A stretch of DNA of 64,000 nt from Hesseltinella vesiculosa. Lineage: Eukaryota; Mucoromycota; Mucoromycetes; Mucorales; Cunninghamellaceae. The stretch's first letter is position 1. Every line of letters starts with the position of its first letter. The notes beneath the pieces are model-generated. The model was given only the letters and a program-made list of their open reading frames with translations. It made no database searches and was not told where the DNA came from. This document shows, one piece after another, positions 3,962-14,332 of this stretch. Location of the stretch: NCBI GenBank assembly GCA_002104935.1, contig MCGT01000023.1, forward strand, positions 310,001 through 374,000, given 5' to 3'. A program made the translations under genes and the position numbers.

Positions 3962-6801
3962 TCAGGCACTATGTTCTTTCTCTATCAAGTCTAGTAATTC
4001 AGTGAGATCAGACAAAACTTCAACGTCGGTAGAAGGCTTGAGGAGAGCCATCATTGTCTTTTCACGAAGATTGGCAACGTCTAGCACTTTGTTGGCGAGG
4101 GAAGTCAGGATGGGATCGGCCGATTTCCTGGCACCAGCATCGGGCACCCAGGTGGATGGACCAGGGAGAGGATGGGGCTGTGGCGGTTGTGATCTGGGAT
4201 GTTGTCGGGAACGACGACGACGGGAGGAGGCGAGACCATTGCCAAGCAGGTTGCGGATGACTTCCATGCCACGGCGCGTGACAACCATAAAGTGTTGATT
4301 ACCAGATTCGGCAAGAGTGATGCAGAGGCGCAGGATGGTCATCGGGATACTCTTGTCGCGCATCAATAGCTGTTCCTTGAGATCCAGATCATCGTTTGTG
4401 ATCATGACAACTTCAAACAGGCTCATCATGACCATTTCCAGTGCGGCGAGCTGGCCCATCGTGATGTTGGCGAGGACACGGCCGTCGGTGCCAAAGTAAT
4501 CTTTACAGATGACTGCAGAAAGCTCGGCCCAGATGTCCTCGATCCACGAGAATTCGTCGGCATGACTGTCGATCAGGGCGCTAAAGGTCTTTTGATTCTC
4601 AAAGCTGACGGCGATCTTGGCCCAGGTTTCAATGGCGAGCAGGGAATAATAGGTATCGATGCCGTGGGTCATAAAATCGTGGATCAAGCGAACAAAGGCG
4701 CGGGCCATGTCGATGTGTGGGATCTTGAGATAAACAGCAATGCTCGAGAAGATCATGAGCGCACTCTTGCGATGATCAAGGGTATCCATGCGTCGAACGC
4801 CAACGAACCAGGCTTCACGGCGGTGGGTGTCATCCCAGTCCTCTTCCTTGATCCCGCGTGTGTATTGGAGAAGGGCAAGTAAGGTGTGGACGAAGCGGTC
4901 GTGTCGTGCCAGGTATTCCATGTTGTGGGGGATAAACGAGAAGTTGCGAAGCAGGTTGAGGATGCACAGGCACCGCTCGCGCAGCGACAACCACATCTCG
5001 GACGAGCTATCTTCGAGCATGGGAATCAGGCTCTTCATTTCATCCAAGGACATGTCAAACAGAGTGGCATAGTTGACCTGGGTGTCGTCAGGCAGGCTGG
5101 TCCGGCGCTTTTTTAGTTCCTGCTTGACCTGGTCGGCCTCCTTGGGTCCGCCAAGCGATTCATAACCAAAGAAGTCTTGATCAAGGACATCTAGCAGTAC
5201 ATCCAGAAGGTCTTCGCACTCAGCCAGCACGAGGGGCGTATGAACAGTGACCATGGTCAAGGTATTCAAGGCGTTGGCGACCTCCATCTTCAACCCAGAC
5301 TTGAGCGACATGATAAGGGCGTGGATGTCAACGGCGCCCAGCTCGGCCAATTGGGCTACCATGGGCCGGATTTCAAACTTGTCAAAGTACTTGAGATCCA
5401 CTCCACCATAGGTCTCGATGTTGCGTGTCTTGGGCACATAGGTCACAAGATTATCGGCAGTCTCTTCTTCAGATTGATCCTTTTGTTGGACGGTAGGCGT
5501 GGAGATGGTGGGAGGAGGAGGCGTGGCTACGGCGGTGGAGGGTTGCCCGTTGGCCGCTTGGGGAGTAGATGGATCTTGGGCTGGCTGTGAGATGGCCTGC
5601 ATGGGTTGCTGTTGATGTTGGGGAGATGGTTGGGCGGGTGGCGTGTCCAGCTTTTGATGGTCGACTGCTGAGCTTTGAAGAACACTGGGTGAGGACATTT
5701 GTGGGCTGGCTGCGTGATGTGGCTAAAAGAAGGAATGAGATTCGGCTGCCTTGTGTGTTTCTTACTTACTTGACCAGTCATGAAAGGAGATGACACTGGG
5801 CTGGCTTGTTGAGTTTGCTGCATTTGTTGAAGTTGCTGCTGATAAGGATTGGAATACACGACGTTCGTCTGTGCTTGAGCTCGATGCTGAAAGGCAAAGA
5901 GTGATTGAGCTTCAGGTTGGCTATCTCTCACACACACACTCTCTCTCTTTTTTTTTTTTTTTTTTTGGTTACCAATTGAGGAGAAGAATGGGTGCTGCCA
6001 GGTTGTTGCATTTGGAAATTCTGAGCAGTGGGTGTGCTAGGTCCTATTCATGTAAAAAAAGAAAAGAGGGTTGTCAATCAAAGCGGGCATACAGGAAGAT
6101 GCGTGTGTGTTACGTACGGGCAATATCAACACCCATAGGAGACTGCTGGGGGCTGACAGCTGTGGATGTCATTGGTGAGGCAAGATTGGAAGGCGGATGA
6201 GCAATAACGGGTGACGACGATGGCGATTGTTTAACTAAGTAGAAAGGGAGATGAGCAGATGTTTATTGAAAAGGAAGCGAGCGATGGGAGAGAGGGTTTA
6301 CCTCTGTTCATGGCCATGGTGGCGGCCTGCTGCTGTTGCTGCTGTAGTAACAATGGATTAGCGTAGAGTGATCGACCTTGCTGTTGTTGCTGCTGCTGCA
6401 GTTGAGCCTGCAATACTATAGAAAAAATGAAGGATGTCAGATCGTGATTTTTTTTTTTTGCCTTTTTGCGTCAAGAAAAAGAGCTTGCCTTGATTCTGGA
6501 GCATCATGGTTTGCTGTGGTGAAAACATGGGAGTGGATGGAGACTGTGGCTGTTGTGGCTGCTGTTGCTGTTGTTGTGGGGTGAAGGGAGGCCGCATTTG
6601 CGGTGATGACATGGGCATCGAGTTCATGGGAGGCTGCATCATAGGCATGCTGCCTTGAGCCAGCAGGCTTGGATCAAAGCCTACCATGTCGTTGAAATTG
6701 AAGCTGTTCCCGTTGGCCATGCCGTTGAATCGCAAGCCATTAAGTTGATTGGCATTGTTACTGTTAGGGGAATTTTGCTGCTGTTGTTGGAACGGCAACA
6801 T
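3962..6801 (-). CDS. SWI1: SWI/SNF chromatin-remodelling subunit Swi1 (BAF250/ARID1-like), no ARID seen
   Basis: Six exons: 6801-6489, 6415-6302, 6234-6118, 6043-5973, 5886-5770 and 5722-3962; 830 aa. The first 250 residues are Gln/Asn/Pro/Met-rich with repeated poly-Gln, as in fungal Swi1. The C-terminal 500 residues carry the conserved Swi1/BAF250 C-terminal fold, with PKTRNIETYGGVDL, LGAVDIHALIMSLKSGL, ECEDLLDVL, RCLCILNLLRNFSF and a long helical repeat region. Swi1 is a core subunit of the ATP-dependent SWI/SNF remodeller. The first intron uses a GC donor (AG|GCAAGC). The ARID DNA-binding domain that normally lies between the Gln-rich part and the C-terminal fold is not visible in any exon or skipped frame. 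A Fanzor transposon ends only 90 bp upstream of the start codon. Confidence 0.87.
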
Positions 6802-6883
6802 GGTAATGAAGAAGGGTGATTTAAAAGAAAGAGGAAAGAAAGAAAAAAGGGGAGGCGGGAAAACAACAACAACAGCTACAACA

Positions 6884-6890
6884 CATCACA
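6884..6890. repeat. left copy of 7-bp putative target site duplication
   Basis: CATCACA lies directly outside the left end of the Fanzor element and recurs at 12104-12110 directly outside the right end, in the same orientation. Seven exact bases could be chance, but their position flush with both ends of the inverted repeats argues for a duplication made on insertion. Confidence 0.6.
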
Positions 6891-7059
6891 TTTATTTCTA
6901 AATCGAGAAAAAAAGCGGAGTGAGCACAAACTGAATCAATTGGAACGAGAGGCTCACCTTTTTTTAAAAAAAAAATAAACGAGACACTGCGCTAGCCAGA
7001 CTTGCATCGGTACATTCAGAGGTATCCAACAAGAGCCGACGACGCAGTATGGCACGGTT
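6891..7059 (-). ncRNA. candidate Fanzor guide (omega) RNA scaffold / 3' UTR
   Basis: In TnpB and Fanzor loci the guide RNA is usually made from the 3' end of the nuclease gene to the element end, with the guide taken from flanking host DNA. Here 169 bp lie between the Fanzor stop codon and the element boundary. On the minus strand they contain a stem GTGAGC/GCTCAC (6952-6957 with 6920-6925), 26 bases apart, and a T8/A7 self-complementary tract just upstream. The guide would then be read from host sequence beginning TGTGATGTGTTGTAG at 6890 and running towards swi1. This is inferred from position and the hairpin only; no transcript is known. Confidence 0.4.
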
Positions 7060-7386
7060 TCAGTCCGGCCAAGAGGAGGGGGGGAGTTGCGGGGGTGAGA
7101 CGTTGCCTGGGCGGGCGAAGACGGTAGGACGGCGCCCCAAGAAGATGGTGTTCCAGGCAATGGCAAGTATGTTTCGAGAGGCATTTTGGTCGCGGTGCCA
7201 GTCTGTGTTGCACGTGTTGCAGTGCTTGACAGAGTACAACTTTTGATCAGCCTCTTGACTTGCAGGGATCGTCGTGGTCGTCATGGTGTTGGTTGTGACA
7301 GTTTTGTGTGTGGCGTTGGGCCCCTCGTACGTGGTGATCGTTTTCTCAACGTGGGAATGGCGGTTGTGGGAAGCGGAGGTGGAGGA
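6892..7386. repeat. 495-bp inverted repeat, left copy
   Basis: The reverse complement of 11608-12102. I compared several segments base by base, including a seven-base homopolymer and both ends, and found no mismatch; overlapping translations in several frames are also identical. The repeat holds the last ~108 codons of the Fanzor gene (half of the zinc ribbon and the RuvC-III motif) plus about 170 bp of 3' flank. Beyond 7386 similarity stops, then resumes in diverged form near 7530-7600 after a segment missing from the right copy. Confidence 0.9.
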
Positions 7387-10300
7387 ATCATGGTCCACTG
7401 AAGTGATACCGCTATGGCGGCCGGGATCATCAGATGCAGGCACATTCGTCACAAGTGTAGTTGTAGTTGTAGTGGTGACGATGGTGCTGTCAGGGGTGGT
7501 CGTGGTCGTGGTCGTTTTCTTCTCCTTGGAGAGCCCATCACGGGAAAGAGGGCGGGTAAATTCGACGGAGGTCACTTCTGGGAACTGCATGTTTTGGGGA
7601 ACAGAGGCCTGTTGGAGGGAGTGGTCGCCGCAGGCCGAACATATTTGGCTAGTCATGTATTCATCGACGTCAACCATAAGCAGGCGACACTGGGCATCTG
7701 CTTTTTCAAAGAGTTGCCGGGTCCTTTTGGCCAGACCATGCTGAGTTTTTCGGCCACGGAATACGGACGATCCAACATTCGCAGCACCATAAAATACAAC
7801 CGGAAGTTTGGTGGCATCATGTCGCGTTGGGGCTCGCCTCCATTTGTTCCTTCTACAAAAAAATGTTTGCTGTGAGCTACCTATGCCAGTAAGTCACATC
7901 CTTTCCTTTTTACCTTGGAATTGGCTCGGTCTCGGTGATGCGGCCAACAGGATCAGCCTTGTATTTCGACCCACCCGTCAGGAAGATATTGACCAGTTCA
8001 GAGTCTTGGATCTGCTGCCATCGCCAAATTTGGAATCTTGCCTTGGCCATTCGAACCCCAGCATAGAAAGACAGGAACGTGTCAGCATGCGCGTCCATGT
8101 ATCGTAAATACGCATCCAATTCCACGGGGTCAACGGTGCGGTAGGTGGGTATGCTCGACTCAAGGCATGCGATGCCACTCTTCGTTCTCCATTTTTGGAG
8201 CTTCCGGTGGAGAGAATCGGATTTGGCGCGATACTCAGAAGAGGAAAAGTTGCGTACCTGATGAGGGCGCTTGTAGGCGGCATACTGCCGGGGGACTTGT
8301 AGGCTGGGGTATTGGCGAGACAAGTCTTGAAGCTGCTCTCCAGTCAGGTAATTGGGGGCGTCGTAGATCAATGGGTCGCAATTGTCGACAGCCACAACTA
8401 GGTCACGATCGCCAGGGTCCAGGCCCCACGGCGAAAAATACGGCCATTCCCATGGCTCAATGTCACCCAGGGTGACGCGCGGAAGCGGCTTGGACGGCTT
8501 GGACTTGGCATAGATAGCTGTCAATGAGTACCCATCTGTGGTGATCATGCCGGTAAACATATTCTTGCCTGTGTGAGTGGTGACACTATTGTTGAATGAG
8601 AGTTTGTCAATGTGAGAAAAATTTGGAGACGAAAAAAAAATAGGGGGCCACCGTCCTTTTCTACCGCTACTTACTTTCGGAGTGAGCCTGCGTTGACAAA
8701 GTAGCCAGGTTTGAGGATGGCATTTGTGCAGCCAGGCTTTGCAAATTGGGAACGGAGACCAGCCGAGATCAGGAGAGGGTGCAGTGCACTGTCATCGAGA
8801 GTTAAGTGGATGCTTCGGAAGGATGGTGTAGGATAGGCACCGAGGAGGCGTATGGTTGGTGGTCGAATGTGCTCATGCGGATAAAAGCAGCGAGCTAAAA
8901 ACGAAGGTGCATTGGCTCGTCGTTGGTTGCATTTTTTCGACCAGGTGATTTGTTTGCTTGTGACTGACACAAGTCGGGAGAGGACATGCTTGGTTGCTTC
9001 CGTCAAACTCGGCCACCGATCACTGTCAAAAAGGGCACCAGTGTTGACGGCCTGAGCCAGGGCACGGACAAGGCGACTGCGAACTCTTCGCTTCAAGCTT
9101 TTGCACTCTTTCAGCTTTGATAATTCATAATGCGCCCATGATTTGCTCGCCATTTCTTGTGGTTTTGAGGCGGCTTTGATGGTGTCAGCATTGGCATCTG
9201 CGGCAAACTTGTCCATGACGAGCATCAGGTGGAGAAAGAGATGTCGGTGTGTGGTGATGTATTTTTCCTTGATCGGGAGCAGAGGTGGCCCGTCCGAAGC
9301 GCTGGTCGTGTAACCGCGGCAATGCAAGTGGCGGGCAATAGCCAACAGGGTATCCAAGGTATCTCTACAGCCCAACTTGGCGTGGCAGGCCCATACCAGC
9401 ATGGCACTGTCAACATGGCCTCTTCTTTCATCCGTTGATGGCTGGCCTGGAGAGCATTTGCCTATGGCGACCACTGCAGCAAGGCTCTTCAAATCCACCG
9501 AAATATCTTCTTTCAGCTGGTTGATAGCTGTCGGCAAATCACCAGTGATTTCATACTCAATGGTTTCCATGGCTTCTTCCTCTTCAATTTTGATAACGGA
9601 GTTGACGATAAACTTGGCAATGGACAGCACGTCGGAGGTTTTGAGGCCCTGGAAATAAAAAAAAAATAGTGAGAGGGGATGATGAGGAGTGTCAAATCGG
9701 CTACGTCTCTTTTTTCAGGCCAGGCATTGATGTTTACCTTGACAGCCATCTCCAATCGTTTTTGGGTGATATACCACAGCCGCTCCACAAAATTTTCAAC
9801 GACAAAGCTTTGAAAGTCCACGACTTCTTGCTTTGCCATGTATTCTTGAATTTGCCCATACTTTTTGCCTTGATGGGCACCACCAAGGGGTGTGATGTTG
9901 AGATGCGGGTAAGCATGGGAGAAGAGGTCGTACATGGCTGTCAGGGTAGGAGCAAACGCACCAATCACCGGCTGGTTGGTGATGGGCTGGCCAAGGAAGA
10001 GCTGCGAGAGACTTGTAAACAACCGCGGGTGAAAGAGACATTTGGGGAAGGGTGTGGCATCGTCGAAAAGTTTGACGATCACAAACTTCAAAAACAGAGA
10101 GTGTAAGAATCGGAGCCGTGTTGCCCATCGCACGACATCACGTGTCACGCCAATGAAGCTCTGCTTTTGTCCATGAGTAAGGCTGAGACCATTGGCGAGC
10201 TTGCCTTTTCTCGAGAACCGCCGGAATGGCCCAAGCTCGGCATGGAGTATAGCATCTTTTCTGGTGTAGGAGCGTCTTGAGGGACCAACCTTGTCCTTGT

Positions 10301-10559
10301 CCACCATATCTATTTCAGCCTCAAGCTTCGCAAGTTTCTTGGACCGCTTCACCGCCAGCGATTGCTTCTTTTTGACTGTGCGTTTGGTATTAATAAAATG
10401 GGTTGACGGCCCGGCTTCTTCATCGTCAACGATGTCTTCATCGCTCTCAGAATCATGCTCATGATCGCTGTCATCAGTACTGGCTTGATCATCGCCGTCT
10501 TCTTCGGGATCATCTACAGCGATCAAAAACAAACGCTTTTCAGGAACCAAGCGCAACAT
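7060..10559 (-). CDS. Fanzor RNA-guided nuclease (TnpB-like, RuvC plus zinc ribbon), apparently intact
   Basis: Four exons (10559-9738, 9648-8675, 8585-7914, 7852-7060) keep phase and give 1086 aa with no internal stop. RuvC-I is GLDPGDRD (Asp655). The RuvC-II region has FYGAANVGS near 843, with the likely relocated glutamate in DVDEYMTSQ (Glu887). RuvC-III is HRDQNASRN (Asp1044). The zinc ribbon is CSAC (894-897) and CNTC (1034-1037), split by an unusual 136-residue Thr-rich insertion. The N-terminal 100 residues are acidic then basic, with KRTVKKK and KRSKK as candidate nuclear signals. A TGMITTDGYS block precedes RuvC-I, as in other Fanzors. The start at 10559 is about 50 bp downstream of a TATA box; the longer upstream frame has no ATG. 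Size suggests the Fanzor1 branch. All catalytic residues are present, so activity is plausible but not shown. Confidence 0.88.
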
Positions 10560-10560
10560 T

Positions 10561-10735
10561 TTTTTTTTCGGAAAGTTAACCTTGTCCCTGAAAATGCTCA
10601 ACCTTTTTCTTCTTATATAAGGCTATTTCATGGGGGGCCATACCCCTATAGTGCGTGCGATTATAAGTAGCATGTAGCATTGTTGATGAGACAAGCAGGA
10701 AGAAGAAGCGCAGAGGTCTCTTTGCTGAGAAAACC
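10561..10735. repeat. Fanzor promoter segment, tandemly duplicated
   Basis: This promoter and 5' UTR segment is similar, with scattered substitutions and small gaps, to about 11190-11335 in the same orientation. Shared marks are GAAAGTT(A)ACC near the start codon, TTCTTATATAAGGCTAT, and AGTG(A/C)GTGCGAT further upstream. With the adjoining coding fragments it shows that an extra Fanzor 5' end lies next to the intact one. Confidence 0.65.
10611..10622 (-). promoter_or_regulatory. TATA box of the Fanzor gene
   Basis: CTTATATAAGG lies about 55 bp upstream of the chosen Fanzor ATG on the minus strand. The same motif, with similar flanks, is preserved in the decayed second copy at 11239-11250, which supports its being part of the original element promoter. 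Confidence 0.55.
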
Positions 10736-10787
10736 TTAAATTTGAAACCTGATTTCCATTTTTATTTGCCAAAGAGGTTGGTGCAGA

Positions 10788-11189
10788 TTATGCAGCATTT
10801 TTCTTCAGAAATGATTCAACCACAAACTTTTGAAAACCCAGGAGCTCATGCTTGGCCATATCTTTTTGAATCTGTCCATATTTTTCCATCGATGGACACC
10901 ACCAAGAGGGGTGATATTGAGATGTGGGTAGGCGCGGGAGAAGAGACTGTATTTGTCTGTCAGAGTAGGAGCAAACACGCCGATCACAGGGTGTTTGGTG
11001 ATTGGCAAACCTCAAAAGACGGGGAGGGCAGGAAGCATAGTTGCTCCTGCTCCTGCTTGACTGTGCTTTGCTATTGATAAAATGGATAGATGGCCCAGCT
11101 ACTTCATCGTTATCATCTTCTTGTTTGGACTCGCCTACATCGGTCAAAAATAAACGTTCTGTCAAGAACTAGATTCAAGCGCTACGCAT
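10788..11189 (-). pseudogene. decayed Fanzor N-terminal fragment
   Basis: Read on the minus strand, this matches the first exon of the intact Fanzor in pieces: RLFLTDVGE against RLFLIAVDD, EVAGPSIHFIN against EEAGPSTHFIN, then KYGQIQKDMAKHELLGFQKFVVESF against KYGQIQEYMAKQEVVDFQSFVVENF. A large internal segment, roughly the counterpart of 10020-10370, is missing. The ATG corresponding to the intact start (11189) is followed within seven codons by two in-frame stops, and further frame changes occur. It cannot make a nuclease. It is more diverged from the intact gene than the inverted repeats are from each other, so it is an older copy. Confidence 0.75.
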
Positions 11190-11519
11190 TTTTTTTTGAA
11201 AAGTTTACCCTGTCGCTGAAAGTACCCAATCTTTCGCTTCTTATATAAGGCTATTCATGAGTGGCCAACCTCTATAGTGAGTGCGATCAAAAGTGGTGTG
11301 TAGCGTTGTTGAAGCTAAAGAGAAAAAGCATGTTGAATCGCTTTTACTCGAATTTTTCGTTTTAGAATTGGATGAGAAAATAGAATTAGGAATGGAAGAG
11401 CGAGAGGCAAGAGTGGAAGCAGAGAGGAACATGGTTGGAGATGGCGGTTGACGGATGGCATGTGTAGTAAAGCTGGAAGGAATGATTTCGCACCGCACGT
11501 TTTGGTAAGGGCACACTCT

Positions 11520-11934
11520 GAAGGAGGTTGGCGACGTTTTTCTCCAAACATGCAGTTCCCGGAAGTGGCGTCCGTCGAATTTACCTGTCCTCTTTCCCGC
11601 AATGGACTCCTCCACCTCCGCTTCCCACAACCGCCATTCCCACGTTGAGAAAACGATCACCACGTACGAGGGGCCCAACGCCACACACAAAACTGTCACC
11701 ACCAACACCATGACGACCACGACGATCCCTGCAAGTCAAGAGGCTGATCAAAAGTTGTACTCTGTCAAGCACTGCAACACGTGCAACACAGACTGGCACC
11801 GCGACCAAAATGCCTCTCGAAACATACTTGCCATTGCCTGGAACACCATCTTCTTGGGGCGCCGTCCTACCGTCTTCGCCCGCCCAGGCAACGTCTCACC
11901 CCCGCAACTCCCCCCCTCCTCTTGGCCGGACTGA
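11520..11934 (+). pseudogene. Fanzor C-terminal fragment in opposite orientation
   Basis: On the plus strand this repeats the end of the Fanzor gene. The first ~80 bp are a diverged match to the segment after the CSAC half of the zinc ribbon. About 145 bp, including the Thr-rich codons, are then missing, and from 11608 onward the match to the intact gene appears exact. An ATG at 11602 opens a 110-codon frame holding the second zinc-ribbon half (CNTC) and the RuvC-III motif but no RuvC-I or RuvC-II, so any product would be catalytically dead. Whether it is expressed is unknown. Confidence 0.75.
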
Positions 11935-12102
11935 AACCGTGCCATACTGCGTCGTCGGCTCTTGTTGGATACCTCTGAATGTACCGATGCAAGTCTGGCT
12001 AGCGCAGTGTCTCGTTTATTTTTTTTTTAAAAAAAGGTGAGCCTCTCGTTCCAATTGATTCAGTTTGTGCTCACTCCGCTTTTTTTCTCGATTTAGAAAT
12101 AA
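11608..12102. repeat. 495-bp inverted repeat, right copy
   Basis: Reverse complement of 6892-7386. It forms the right end of the Fanzor element and carries a second copy of the gene's 3' end and 3' flank, now pointing outward to the right. Confidence 0.9.
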
Positions 12103-12103
12103 T
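11935..12103 (+). ncRNA. second candidate Fanzor guide RNA scaffold, outward-facing
   Basis: This repeats the region after the Fanzor stop in opposite orientation, with the GTGAGC/GCTCAC stem at 12037-12042 and 12069-12074. If transcribed rightward it would take its guide from host DNA starting CATCACAATTTTTGCG. No promoter for this copy was identified, so it is weaker than the left candidate. Confidence 0.25.
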
Positions 12104-12110
12104 CATCACA
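12104..12110. repeat. right copy of 7-bp putative target site duplication
   Basis: CATCACA flush with the right end of the Fanzor element; partner of 6884-6890. An eight-base duplication with one mismatch is also compatible. Confidence 0.6.
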
Positions 12111-12277
12111 ATTTTTGCGTTGTACCAAAAAAGGCAAGTGGCATTTGTCTCGGACACGAGCGCCTGGACATGGCTTTTTTCCTCTGCTAGGCCGAAACGA
12201 GGAAGAAGCTATACATTTATCATGGTAGAAGAAGAATAAAACATGAGCCTGATTGGCTCGAGGTATGAGGTTATCTT

Positions 12278-14332
12278 TTATTGACTGCGTCTGGTAAATT
12301 TCATGCTATCGTTGCCAGTGGATTCAATATCATACAAGCGGATGGCTGAGGAGATGATACCTTTAATTTGATGTGTGGCAAACCAGCGGCCTTTTGAAAA
12401 AAAAAAAAGATGGTCAGCATTCCTATTGTCAACGGGTCCAAAATGAACTTACCAGGGCAAGCATGTCTAAGGATAAAATGAAAAGAGAGAATTGAATGAT
12501 CGAGTTGAATTGTGAGAGAGGCACTTACTTTCCCATGCCAAAGGAAACAAAGTCCTCACCAACTTTTGTGACAGATTTGTCGCCAACGTGTCGGAAAGGG
12601 TTGAATTCGTTCAAAGGCTTTTCATCTTTGCTTGGATAATGAAAATGGAGATGCCAAAAGTTGATGTAGACTTCGTCACCTGGTAGCCGAGGTTAAAACG
12701 GTTAGTTCAGAGCATTGTTTTTGCTTCCAACGGCATTTACCTGGGCGAATGACAGCACCGCTTTTTAGGACAACATCGTGTTGGGTGATGTTGGTGTGTG
12801 CGTGGCCCAGATCATTGCCACCGAATCGGAAGGCTTCGCGTAAGAAGCTATCGAGTTTGACCAGACGGCGATAGACACTGGCGGCGTTTTTGACAAAAAA
12901 GAGGTCGCGGTCAGGCTCGTCCATGGAGATTTTGCCTCGAGCTTGTTGTTCGTTGATTTCATCGGTGATGGCTTGCTCTTGCTCTTCACGGATCCCTTGC
13001 ACCAGTTGGGCATTCCTCAGCAGACCTTGCAGCATGCCGACGGCCGTTGCCACCGTTGTCAATACGCCCACAAAGAAAAACACCACCACAAATGTCGTCA
13101 GTGTCTCGACATTTTCTTGGCTGTATTCCTTGATATGCAACGTCATAGCCCATTTGAAAAAGTCGCTCTGAAAAAACTAGGTCGTTAGCAATGGCAGTGG
13201 CAGTGGCAGTGGCAGTTTTTTTTTTTTTTTTGTTACCTCTTCATTGTGGCCATTTTTAAATCTATTTCGCAGCTGCTCGTCCACAATAGCACGGAGACCT
13301 TCGCGTGCCTTGTTCATGCCATCCATTCGAGGATAGTACCACCTATAAAGATTGGCCGCGTAAATGCTTATTTTTTTTCAAGGCTGCCGTTGATCTTACG
13401 CCATATATTTCTCATGGAACCAGGGTAGGACTTGATGAGCGAGGCCCATGTTGAATTCACCACTGACACTACCGAGCATTTGCATAAACACGGACACCAT
13501 GGGCGTTTTTTCACAGATCTCGTCACCAAAAAAGGCAGACACCACAGCCGAAGCCACGCCTTCAGAAATGAATTGTGACAGCTGCGTCACCTCTAAAAAA
13601 AAATCGAATCGATAGGGATGAATGGGGCGTGACGAGACATGAAGAAAGTTGATGAGATTACCTTTGCCTTCGCCAAGTCGTTCCTTGAAATAAATATTGA
13701 ACTATGGCAAAAAAAAGAAGGTGAGCTGGCCAGGAATAAAAAAGGAGAAACTTACTCTAGTGAGAGCACGTGAACTGTATTCTTTCAGATTAGGGTTGAG
13801 TTCCTTGACAATGGCGTCTTGTACTGAGGTTTTGGGCAGTTTGTAGGGATATCGTTTGAAAAAGTGCAGGGCTTGGAACCGTTTTTCTTGGCTAACATTA
13901 AAGCTTAGGTCAGGATGCGAAAAGACTTCAGCAGCGTGGTCCATGCCAACAATTGTGACGATCTATGTAAATGAAAGGTAAGGCCATGTTTATGACAAAA
14001 TCAAGCAGCACTCACCTTGCCAAAGAGATGTGCTTTGTAGACAGAGCCATATTTCTCGTCGCAGGCTTTTAAAAATCCGGTTTTATTCTTATTGTAAAGA
14101 ACAGTCGAGCCAAAAATGGGCCATGTGTAAGGCACCATTGGAATATCATCCTGCAAACCAAAAAGAGGTTGAGTTTCCGATTTTTTTATTTTATTTTATT
14201 TTTTACCAATTTGCGGTTGGTCAGCGAATAAGCCAAAGCGATGAACGCAAGAGTGGCAGTGGATCCCACTAACCATGGCTTGTCTTTGAGATTAGTAGAT
14301 TCCAGTAGTTGACGAGCGTAAGTATCCAGCAT
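12278..14332 (-). CDS. cytochrome P450 monooxygenase, membrane-anchored
   Basis: Ten exons (14332-14207, 14150-14016, 13962-13756, 13701-13662, 13592-13400, 13342-13237, 13167-12741, 12679-12529, 12466-12453, 12390-12278) give 503 aa. An N-terminal hydrophobic helix (ATLAFIALAYSL) should anchor it in the ER. The K-helix ExxR is REAFR, the PERF-like segment is FNPFRHVG, and the haem loop is FGMGKHACPGRWFA with the cysteine ligand. The haem-ligand cysteine lies in a 14-nt microexon. The I-helix reads FFFVGVLTTVAT, lacking the usual acidic residue before Thr. It is tandem with swi1, whose start is 265 bp downstream if the transposon is removed. Substrate is unknown; the family placement among fungal P450s is not resolved here. 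Confidence 0.9.

Follow-up and report, generated by a model that had tools for sequence, protein, structure and literature searches.

The window, a 64,000-nucleotide stretch of Hesseltinella vesiculosa DNA, carries a Fanzor1 gene within a small mobile element whose long inverted ends hold the gene's own 3' coding part and which putatively makes use of a guide RNA. We consider this reading as a whole likely, and the membership of the protein in Fanzor1 firm. The element with its copies and arms, the spliced frame with its catalytic residues and an insert in the zinc ribbon can be read from the DNA itself. The parts of the element are as follows:

6887 to 12102, minus strand: Fanzor-carrying mobile element of about 5.2 kb, 3' terminus ...GAAATAAATGTG (6887), 5' terminus ...GAAATAA (12102), with two further copies
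6892 to 7389, minus strand: 3' inverted arm, the last ~109 Fanzor codons and the 3' region, 498 nt with 2 mismatches to the other arm
11605 to 12102, plus strand: 5' inverted arm, a second copy of the Fanzor C-terminal codons and 3' region, facing outward (repeat comparison)
6887 to 7056, minus strand: candidate guide-RNA scaffold region, at the position seen in described Fanzors (PMC10432273, available part)
11938 to 12102, plus strand: second copy of the candidate scaffold region, in the other arm (arm comparison)
10788 to 11255, minus strand: degraded, incomplete second copy of the region coding for the Fanzor N-terminus, lying upstream of the gene (self-comparison; direct repeats D1, D2 and D4)
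11539 to 11609, plus strand: further inverted Fanzor remnant, like 7531-7601 (repeat comparison)

A DNA search of the genome (27.05 Mb, 85 contigs; Mucorales, Cunninghamellaceae) revealed three near-full copies, namely the window copy, C16:215250-218748 (99%) and C45:710412-713900 (97%). When the two sister elements were matched together with their flanks (L039, C16:211500-221400, 98.1%; L040, C45:708000-717900, 96.8%), homology extended over about 5.2 kb and was absent from the flanks, with L039 being 13 nt shorter at its 5' end. Three copies with ends identical but for these 13 nt and with unrelated flanks demonstrate that the Fanzor gene is carried by a transposable element. Five mini-copies with both arms were also found, at C45:857442-857890, C10:113069-113498, C7:402028-403215, C78:444464-445328 and C78:306967-308386. 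No transposase domain was detected by Pfam in the eight further ORFs of the element, and no target-site duplication was common to the element copies compared. GAAATAA is reached at nine ends; ATGTG comes next in six, one end in each of six elements, the other ends of the window element and of L040 have GAAATAA without ATGTG, and a remnant on C85 continues with ATATG. The remaining ends, some of which belong to single arms, break off between GAAA and GAAATA or earlier. The 7-nt word CATCACA lies near both ends of the window copy (6876-6891 and 12102-12112; 5 of 2000 shuffles) and is possibly a target duplication or a chance match; it overlaps the conserved ATGTG, and no counterpart was seen in the other copies.

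Two observations concern the surroundings of the gene and the element. Like the window gene with its duplicate at 10788-11255, the gene of the nearest relative found, P0001 (L064), is closely preceded by a degraded piece of the sequence coding for its N-terminus, in the same orientation. The 3' end of the element lies ~90 bp upstream of a Gln-rich ORF on the same strand (6361-6801, minus, no Pfam match), after which comes an ORF with a BAF250/SWI-SNF match (3965-5698, minus). If these two ORFs form one gene, the insertion would lie in the promoter of a chromatin remodeller.

The gene is read on the minus strand, with the parts listed here:

7060 to 10559, minus strand: Fanzor gene in the earlier model, an open frame of 1086 codons after splicing
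10581 to 10680, minus strand: probable exon 1 (MLHATYNRTHYRGMAPHEIALYKKKKVEHFQGQ), resembling the P0001 N-terminus, with the same following intron phase and a similar piece at C29
10514 to 10580, minus strand: probable intron 1 (donor GTTAAC), in phase 1 like its P0001 counterpart, containing the start codon of the earlier model
9738 to 10513, minus strand: exon 2 (splicing, P0001 gene structure)
8675 to 9648, minus strand: exon 3 (splicing)
7914 to 8585, minus strand: exon 4, with the WED TDG motif and the RuvC-I Asp (codon 8419-8417) (splicing, motifs)
7060 to 7852, minus strand: exon 5, with the alternative RuvC-II Glu (codon 7662-7660), the zinc ribbon and the RuvC-III Asp (codon 7191-7189) (splicing, PF07282)
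7222 to 7629, minus strand: Thr-rich insert of 136 residues between the CxxC halves of the zinc ribbon, also in P0001, L065 and L066

The first-pass annotation had proposed three introns and an intact frame of 1086 residues. In-silico splicing of these introns (9649-9737, 8586-8674 and 7853-7913; 89, 89 and 61 nt; all GT..AG) left 3261 nt encoding 1086 residues with no internal stop, and the spliced protein contained every active-site and zinc-binding residue named in that annotation, D655 (GLDPGD), E887 (DVDEYMTSQ), D1044 (WHRDQN) and the four cysteines (CSAC, CNTC). The start was examined against P0001, a 1077-aa H. vesiculosa protein that can be placed whole on contig C12 of the same genome and shares 47% identity with the window protein across 99% of the searched region (residues 130-1086). 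The annotated P0001 gene has five introns, of phases 1, 0, 1, 2 and 2, one more than the window gene, which fits four of them in place and phase (1, 0, 2, 2). Three are the introns of the earlier model (0, 2, 2). The fourth, of phase 1, follows a first exon that is YNLTDYRGMSPRHVALYKKEKR in P0001 and YNRTHYRGMAPHEIALYKKKK in the window (10680-10581), where a 67-nt GT..AG stretch comes next and leads in phase into the acidic region. A paralogue on C29 (L067, itself with stops) has a similar first-exon piece, YNRRHYRGLTRLEIAFY, followed by a stop. The unmatched P0001 intron (63 nt, GTGCTG..AAG) has no counterpart in the window gene.

Because the exon and intron places and phases of P0001 and the C29 piece match, the likelier product has the extra 5' exon and is 1104 aa long. 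Thus, the introns and frame of the earlier model stand, but its start probably does not, codons 1-15 being probably intronic (10580-10514). The earlier description of the locus had the gene right and lacked the mobile element, the inverted ends with the 3' part of the gene, the zinc-ribbon insert and this probable 5' exon. In the 1104-aa numbering used below, the residues are D673, E905, D1062 and C912/C915/C1052/C1055. The intron-1 donor is GTTAAC in the window copy compared to GTAAAC in both sister copies, so the ATG of the earlier model could still serve in place of exon 1 if the donor fails. The splicing of the window gene as given here is what we infer from these comparisons.

With the exon-frame model, the window copy was the only one of the three near-full copies without a frameshift, in agreement with the earlier claim of intactness. 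In L039, a single deletion in exon 3 (five-exon numbering) breaks the frame, and L040 has three frame-breaking indels, one in-frame indel and a changed acceptor of the earlier model's second intron; neither has an in-frame stop once the codons are matched. The pN/pS ratios among the three copies were 0.43, 0.36 and 0.27 (no multiple-hit correction, two copies broken), below 1 by one-sided binomial tests against the site numbers (p = 0.008, 7e-6 and 8e-8). Together with the identity and the shared introns of P0001, this indicates that the open frame is more than chance. It is possible, at about a one-in-three level of belief, that the window copy is instead recently stranded, its frame intact because it is young and the gene silent or inactive in an element dying like its two sisters. 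The frame-breaking indels of the sisters, which come with no in-frame stops, indicate that decay there is recent; the first-intron donor of the window copy deviates, and degraded Fanzor remnants lie within the element. Against this, the window copy has lost none of its RuvC or zinc residues, the earlier model's three introns retain their GT..AG ends, and pN/pS is below 1. That the window protein is an active nuclease seems to us moderately probable from its sequence.

The arms of each element contain the second CxxC and the RuvC-III Asp within the last ~109 codons, followed by 168 nt to GAAATAA. An ORF in the 5' arm of the window element (11602-11934, 110 aa) scored 21.9 bits against PF07282, below the cut-off. 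In L040 (C45), both arms share changes at alignment columns 54, 57, 115, 175, 243, 369 and 409 and a 3-nt gap at 246-248, and the changes shared in L040 are missing from the other four arms compared. In the window element, changes at columns 275, 350, 435 and 461 are common to both arms. The presence of arms in all three elements and of private changes shared within one element implies exchange between arms, such that the arms of one element would evolve together, a claim that rests on the variants private to both arms of one element. By mismatch count (2/498, 10/482 and 7/490 within elements, compared to 5 for W3-A3, 15 for W3-B3 and 13 for A3-B3 between elements), two of the three elements fit homogenisation of the arms and L039 goes against it.

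Published Fanzor work describes a guide RNA from the right or 3' end, a guide derived from the flank and cleavage by RuvC (PMC10432273, available part). In the H. vesiculosa family, the corresponding 3' region is kept in 13 arms. The predicted RNA fold of the candidate scaffold had a z of -1.88, a value that 9 of 200 shuffles also reached. Applied to 13 arms, RNAalifold predicted 35 pairs, one of which was changed on both sides (in five arms); applied to 16 arms, it predicted a different fold of 20 pairs, three of them changed on both sides in one arm each. When the window sequence's own fold was taken, none of its 25 pairs was changed on both sides, and the observed values were reached by 495 to 500 of the 500 shuffles, so this fold is unproved. 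A search of 13 sources with an RNA-fold model detected only the two window arms and nothing at P0001 or at the other Fanzor loci included, and an Rfam scan of window 6000-13000 gave no match. Averaged over 12 arms, identity was 0.939 immediately past the stop, 0.919 across the T/A tract and 0.952 in the final part, compared to 0.928 and 0.916 in pieces of coding sequence, which is no clear excess.

Under the reading that we prefer, the 3' region beside the element end would be transcribed as the guide-RNA scaffold, with flanking host DNA as the guide, and the protein would bind the guide RNA through RuvC/TNB and cut matching DNA at RuvC. Cutting after excision, or of empty sites, may help the element to persist or to spread, and the transposition enzyme would be supplied from elsewhere. 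Fanzor is a proven eukaryotic RNA-guided DNA endonuclease, and its role for its element is left open in the available part of PMC10432273. Since the candidate scaffold is present in both arms, guides may come from both ends. It is conceivable, though we think it unlikely, that this is a two-ended OMEGA system in which both arms encode an outward full scaffold and one Fanzor is loaded with guides from both flanks; repair of Fanzor-made breaks with the opposite arm as template would maintain the likeness of the arms by concerted evolution, and the foldback mini-copies would be extra guide donors. With a putative guide region in both arms, private shared changes, broken sisters and mini-copies in one mould, the family is a testable case for whether guides come from one end or two and for the part of Fanzor in keeping arms alike.

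Among the known systems compared, SpuFz1/Spu-1 of Spizellomyces punctatus is also a Fanzor1 in an inverted-repeat element in which no transposase was found, according to the available parts of PMC10432273 and PMC3627910. It also has mini 'ghost' loci, which the foldback mini-copies of the window family resemble, and a guide RNA from the 3' end region (PMC10432273, same part). Spu-1 has repeats of 30-33 nt in a 2.1-kb element with one 633-aa ORF (PMC10432273 and PMC3627910, as available), whereas the window element has 498-nt arms holding coding sequence, four probable introns and a product of about 1100 aa. Fanzor1 elements in Mucorales also include MCi-2 and MCi-4 of Mucor circinelloides. In the available part of PMC3627910, the copies of MCi-2 are alike in their 3' region and ill-defined at the 5' end, with no recognisable TIRs and with 11-12-bp TSDs, and MCi-4 has MuDR-like TIRs and 9-bp TSDs. 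P0001 differs from the window gene in its surroundings: the 5.7 kb read there contain only four short inverted pairs of 20-26 nt (73-76%) and no long ones. This would suit a Fanzor recruited to a host function, for example in gene control or defence, instead of serving the element, a reading that is improbable for the window gene, which lies inside a multi-copy element with homologous ends and mini-copies.

The identification as a Fanzor, which the first-pass annotation had also made, is supported by several lines of evidence. The spliced protein matched PF07282 (Pfam TNB) at 34.3 bits compared to a cut-off of 26.3. It has DPG at RuvC-I (D673-P-G), and E905 occupies the alternative Fanzor position earlier assigned to it (DVDEYMTSQ), six residues before the zinc finger (first Cys 912); both are Fanzor fingerprints in the available text of PMC10711439. 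The Bao-Jurka motif D-X(125,275)-[TS][TS]XX-C4 zinc finger-X(5,50)-RD, taken from the available part of PMC3627910, is present when the spacing inside the C4 finger is left free. The pattern in the accessible portion of PMC10711439, used there for prokaryotic relatives, has 12-18 residues between CxxC pairs and 120-160 (our reading of the printed 120160) from DPG to Glu, and the window protein has 136 and 229; the pattern was not built to define Fanzor1, for which insertions in zinc finger and RuvC are described in the same portion. The TDG motif reported there for the Fanzor1 WED domain is found as ITTDGYSL; three other families of the genome have TDG or SDG at the aligned position, and P0001 has TNG.

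Structure and database comparisons gave weaker signals. In a PDB search with the single sequence, SpuFz1 appeared at E 2.8 alongside unrelated chains. A two-row profile of the window protein and P0001 matched SpuFz1 weakly (E 0.023), in two stretches in order, the RuvC helix region and then DEYxTSxxCxxC. TranC chains reach the same E 0.023, and TranC and Cas12m chains match this profile weakly at E 0.023 to 0.26; a different RuvC/TnpB-like family (Cas12, TnpB or TranC-like), to which such matches would point, is very improbable in view of the introns, the DPG, the alternative Glu six residues before the first Cys, the TDG motif and the fungal paralogues. An AlphaFold2 model of P0001 with window exon pieces was of low confidence (mean pLDDT 40.5, pTM 0.26), too poor to judge the RuvC fold, REC or the REC2 pair of kinked helices, and Foldseek with a low-confidence exon 5 + P0001 model gave 1181 matches at E <= 10, none of them at E <= 0.001. 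Protein searches of a 5.8-billion set returned P0001 only (7989, 1377 and 7993 candidates scored), the first of them probably flooded by Thr-rich words. The method needs shared exact words, so finding a single relative is no evidence that others are missing elsewhere. Phages and IMG/VR, queried with P0001, gave no match.

The zinc-ribbon insert is conserved in P0001, where it is 139 aa long. Of 135 aligned residues, 51 are identical with the window protein, 22 of these being Thr-Thr, and the alignment scored 161, compared to 500 shuffles that averaged 13 and did not exceed 60. The insert is also found in the broken paralogues L065 and L066, and beta strands were predicted at it in the two low-confidence models (P0001 + exon pieces; exon 5 + P0001). 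Parasitella parasitica is a mucoralean fungus. Its PpFz1 is also a Fanzor1 with an extra inserted domain, located in RuvC (FRI, which binds cyclophilin; PMC11423790, available part), whereas the window insert is in the zinc ribbon; the window protein appears, on our reading of its alignment with other families, to have no insert at the RuvC place. According to the available part of PMC10711439, Fanzor1 proteins reach about 800 residues and have insertions in REC, RuvC and zinc finger, so an insert in the zinc finger is not as such new. We came across no such insert of this size at this position in the available parts of the Fanzor literature examined. With the conserved zinc-ribbon insert there is a second departure in architecture, located elsewhere in the protein than the RuvC insert known from PpFz1.

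Other Fanzor loci are not rare in this genome, with at least 46 PF07282 matches, the window copy not among them. One other, more numerous family gave 10 matches; seven of them, counting the locus of the query itself, cover all 1330 bases of the query at 96-100% identity, and the C2 copy of this family (L003, C2:120612-123809) has long open exons with putative splice junctions. The earlier statement that intact Fanzors are few among many broken copies is therefore doubtful for this genome. Most full-length copies of the L003 family are 96-98% identical and have a long low-complexity RuvC insert with AIAIAIA runs. This family combines a RuvC insert with a short zinc ribbon, and the window family has the reverse. 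As we read it, the RuvC insert of the L003 family probably corresponds in place to the FRI domain of PpFz1.
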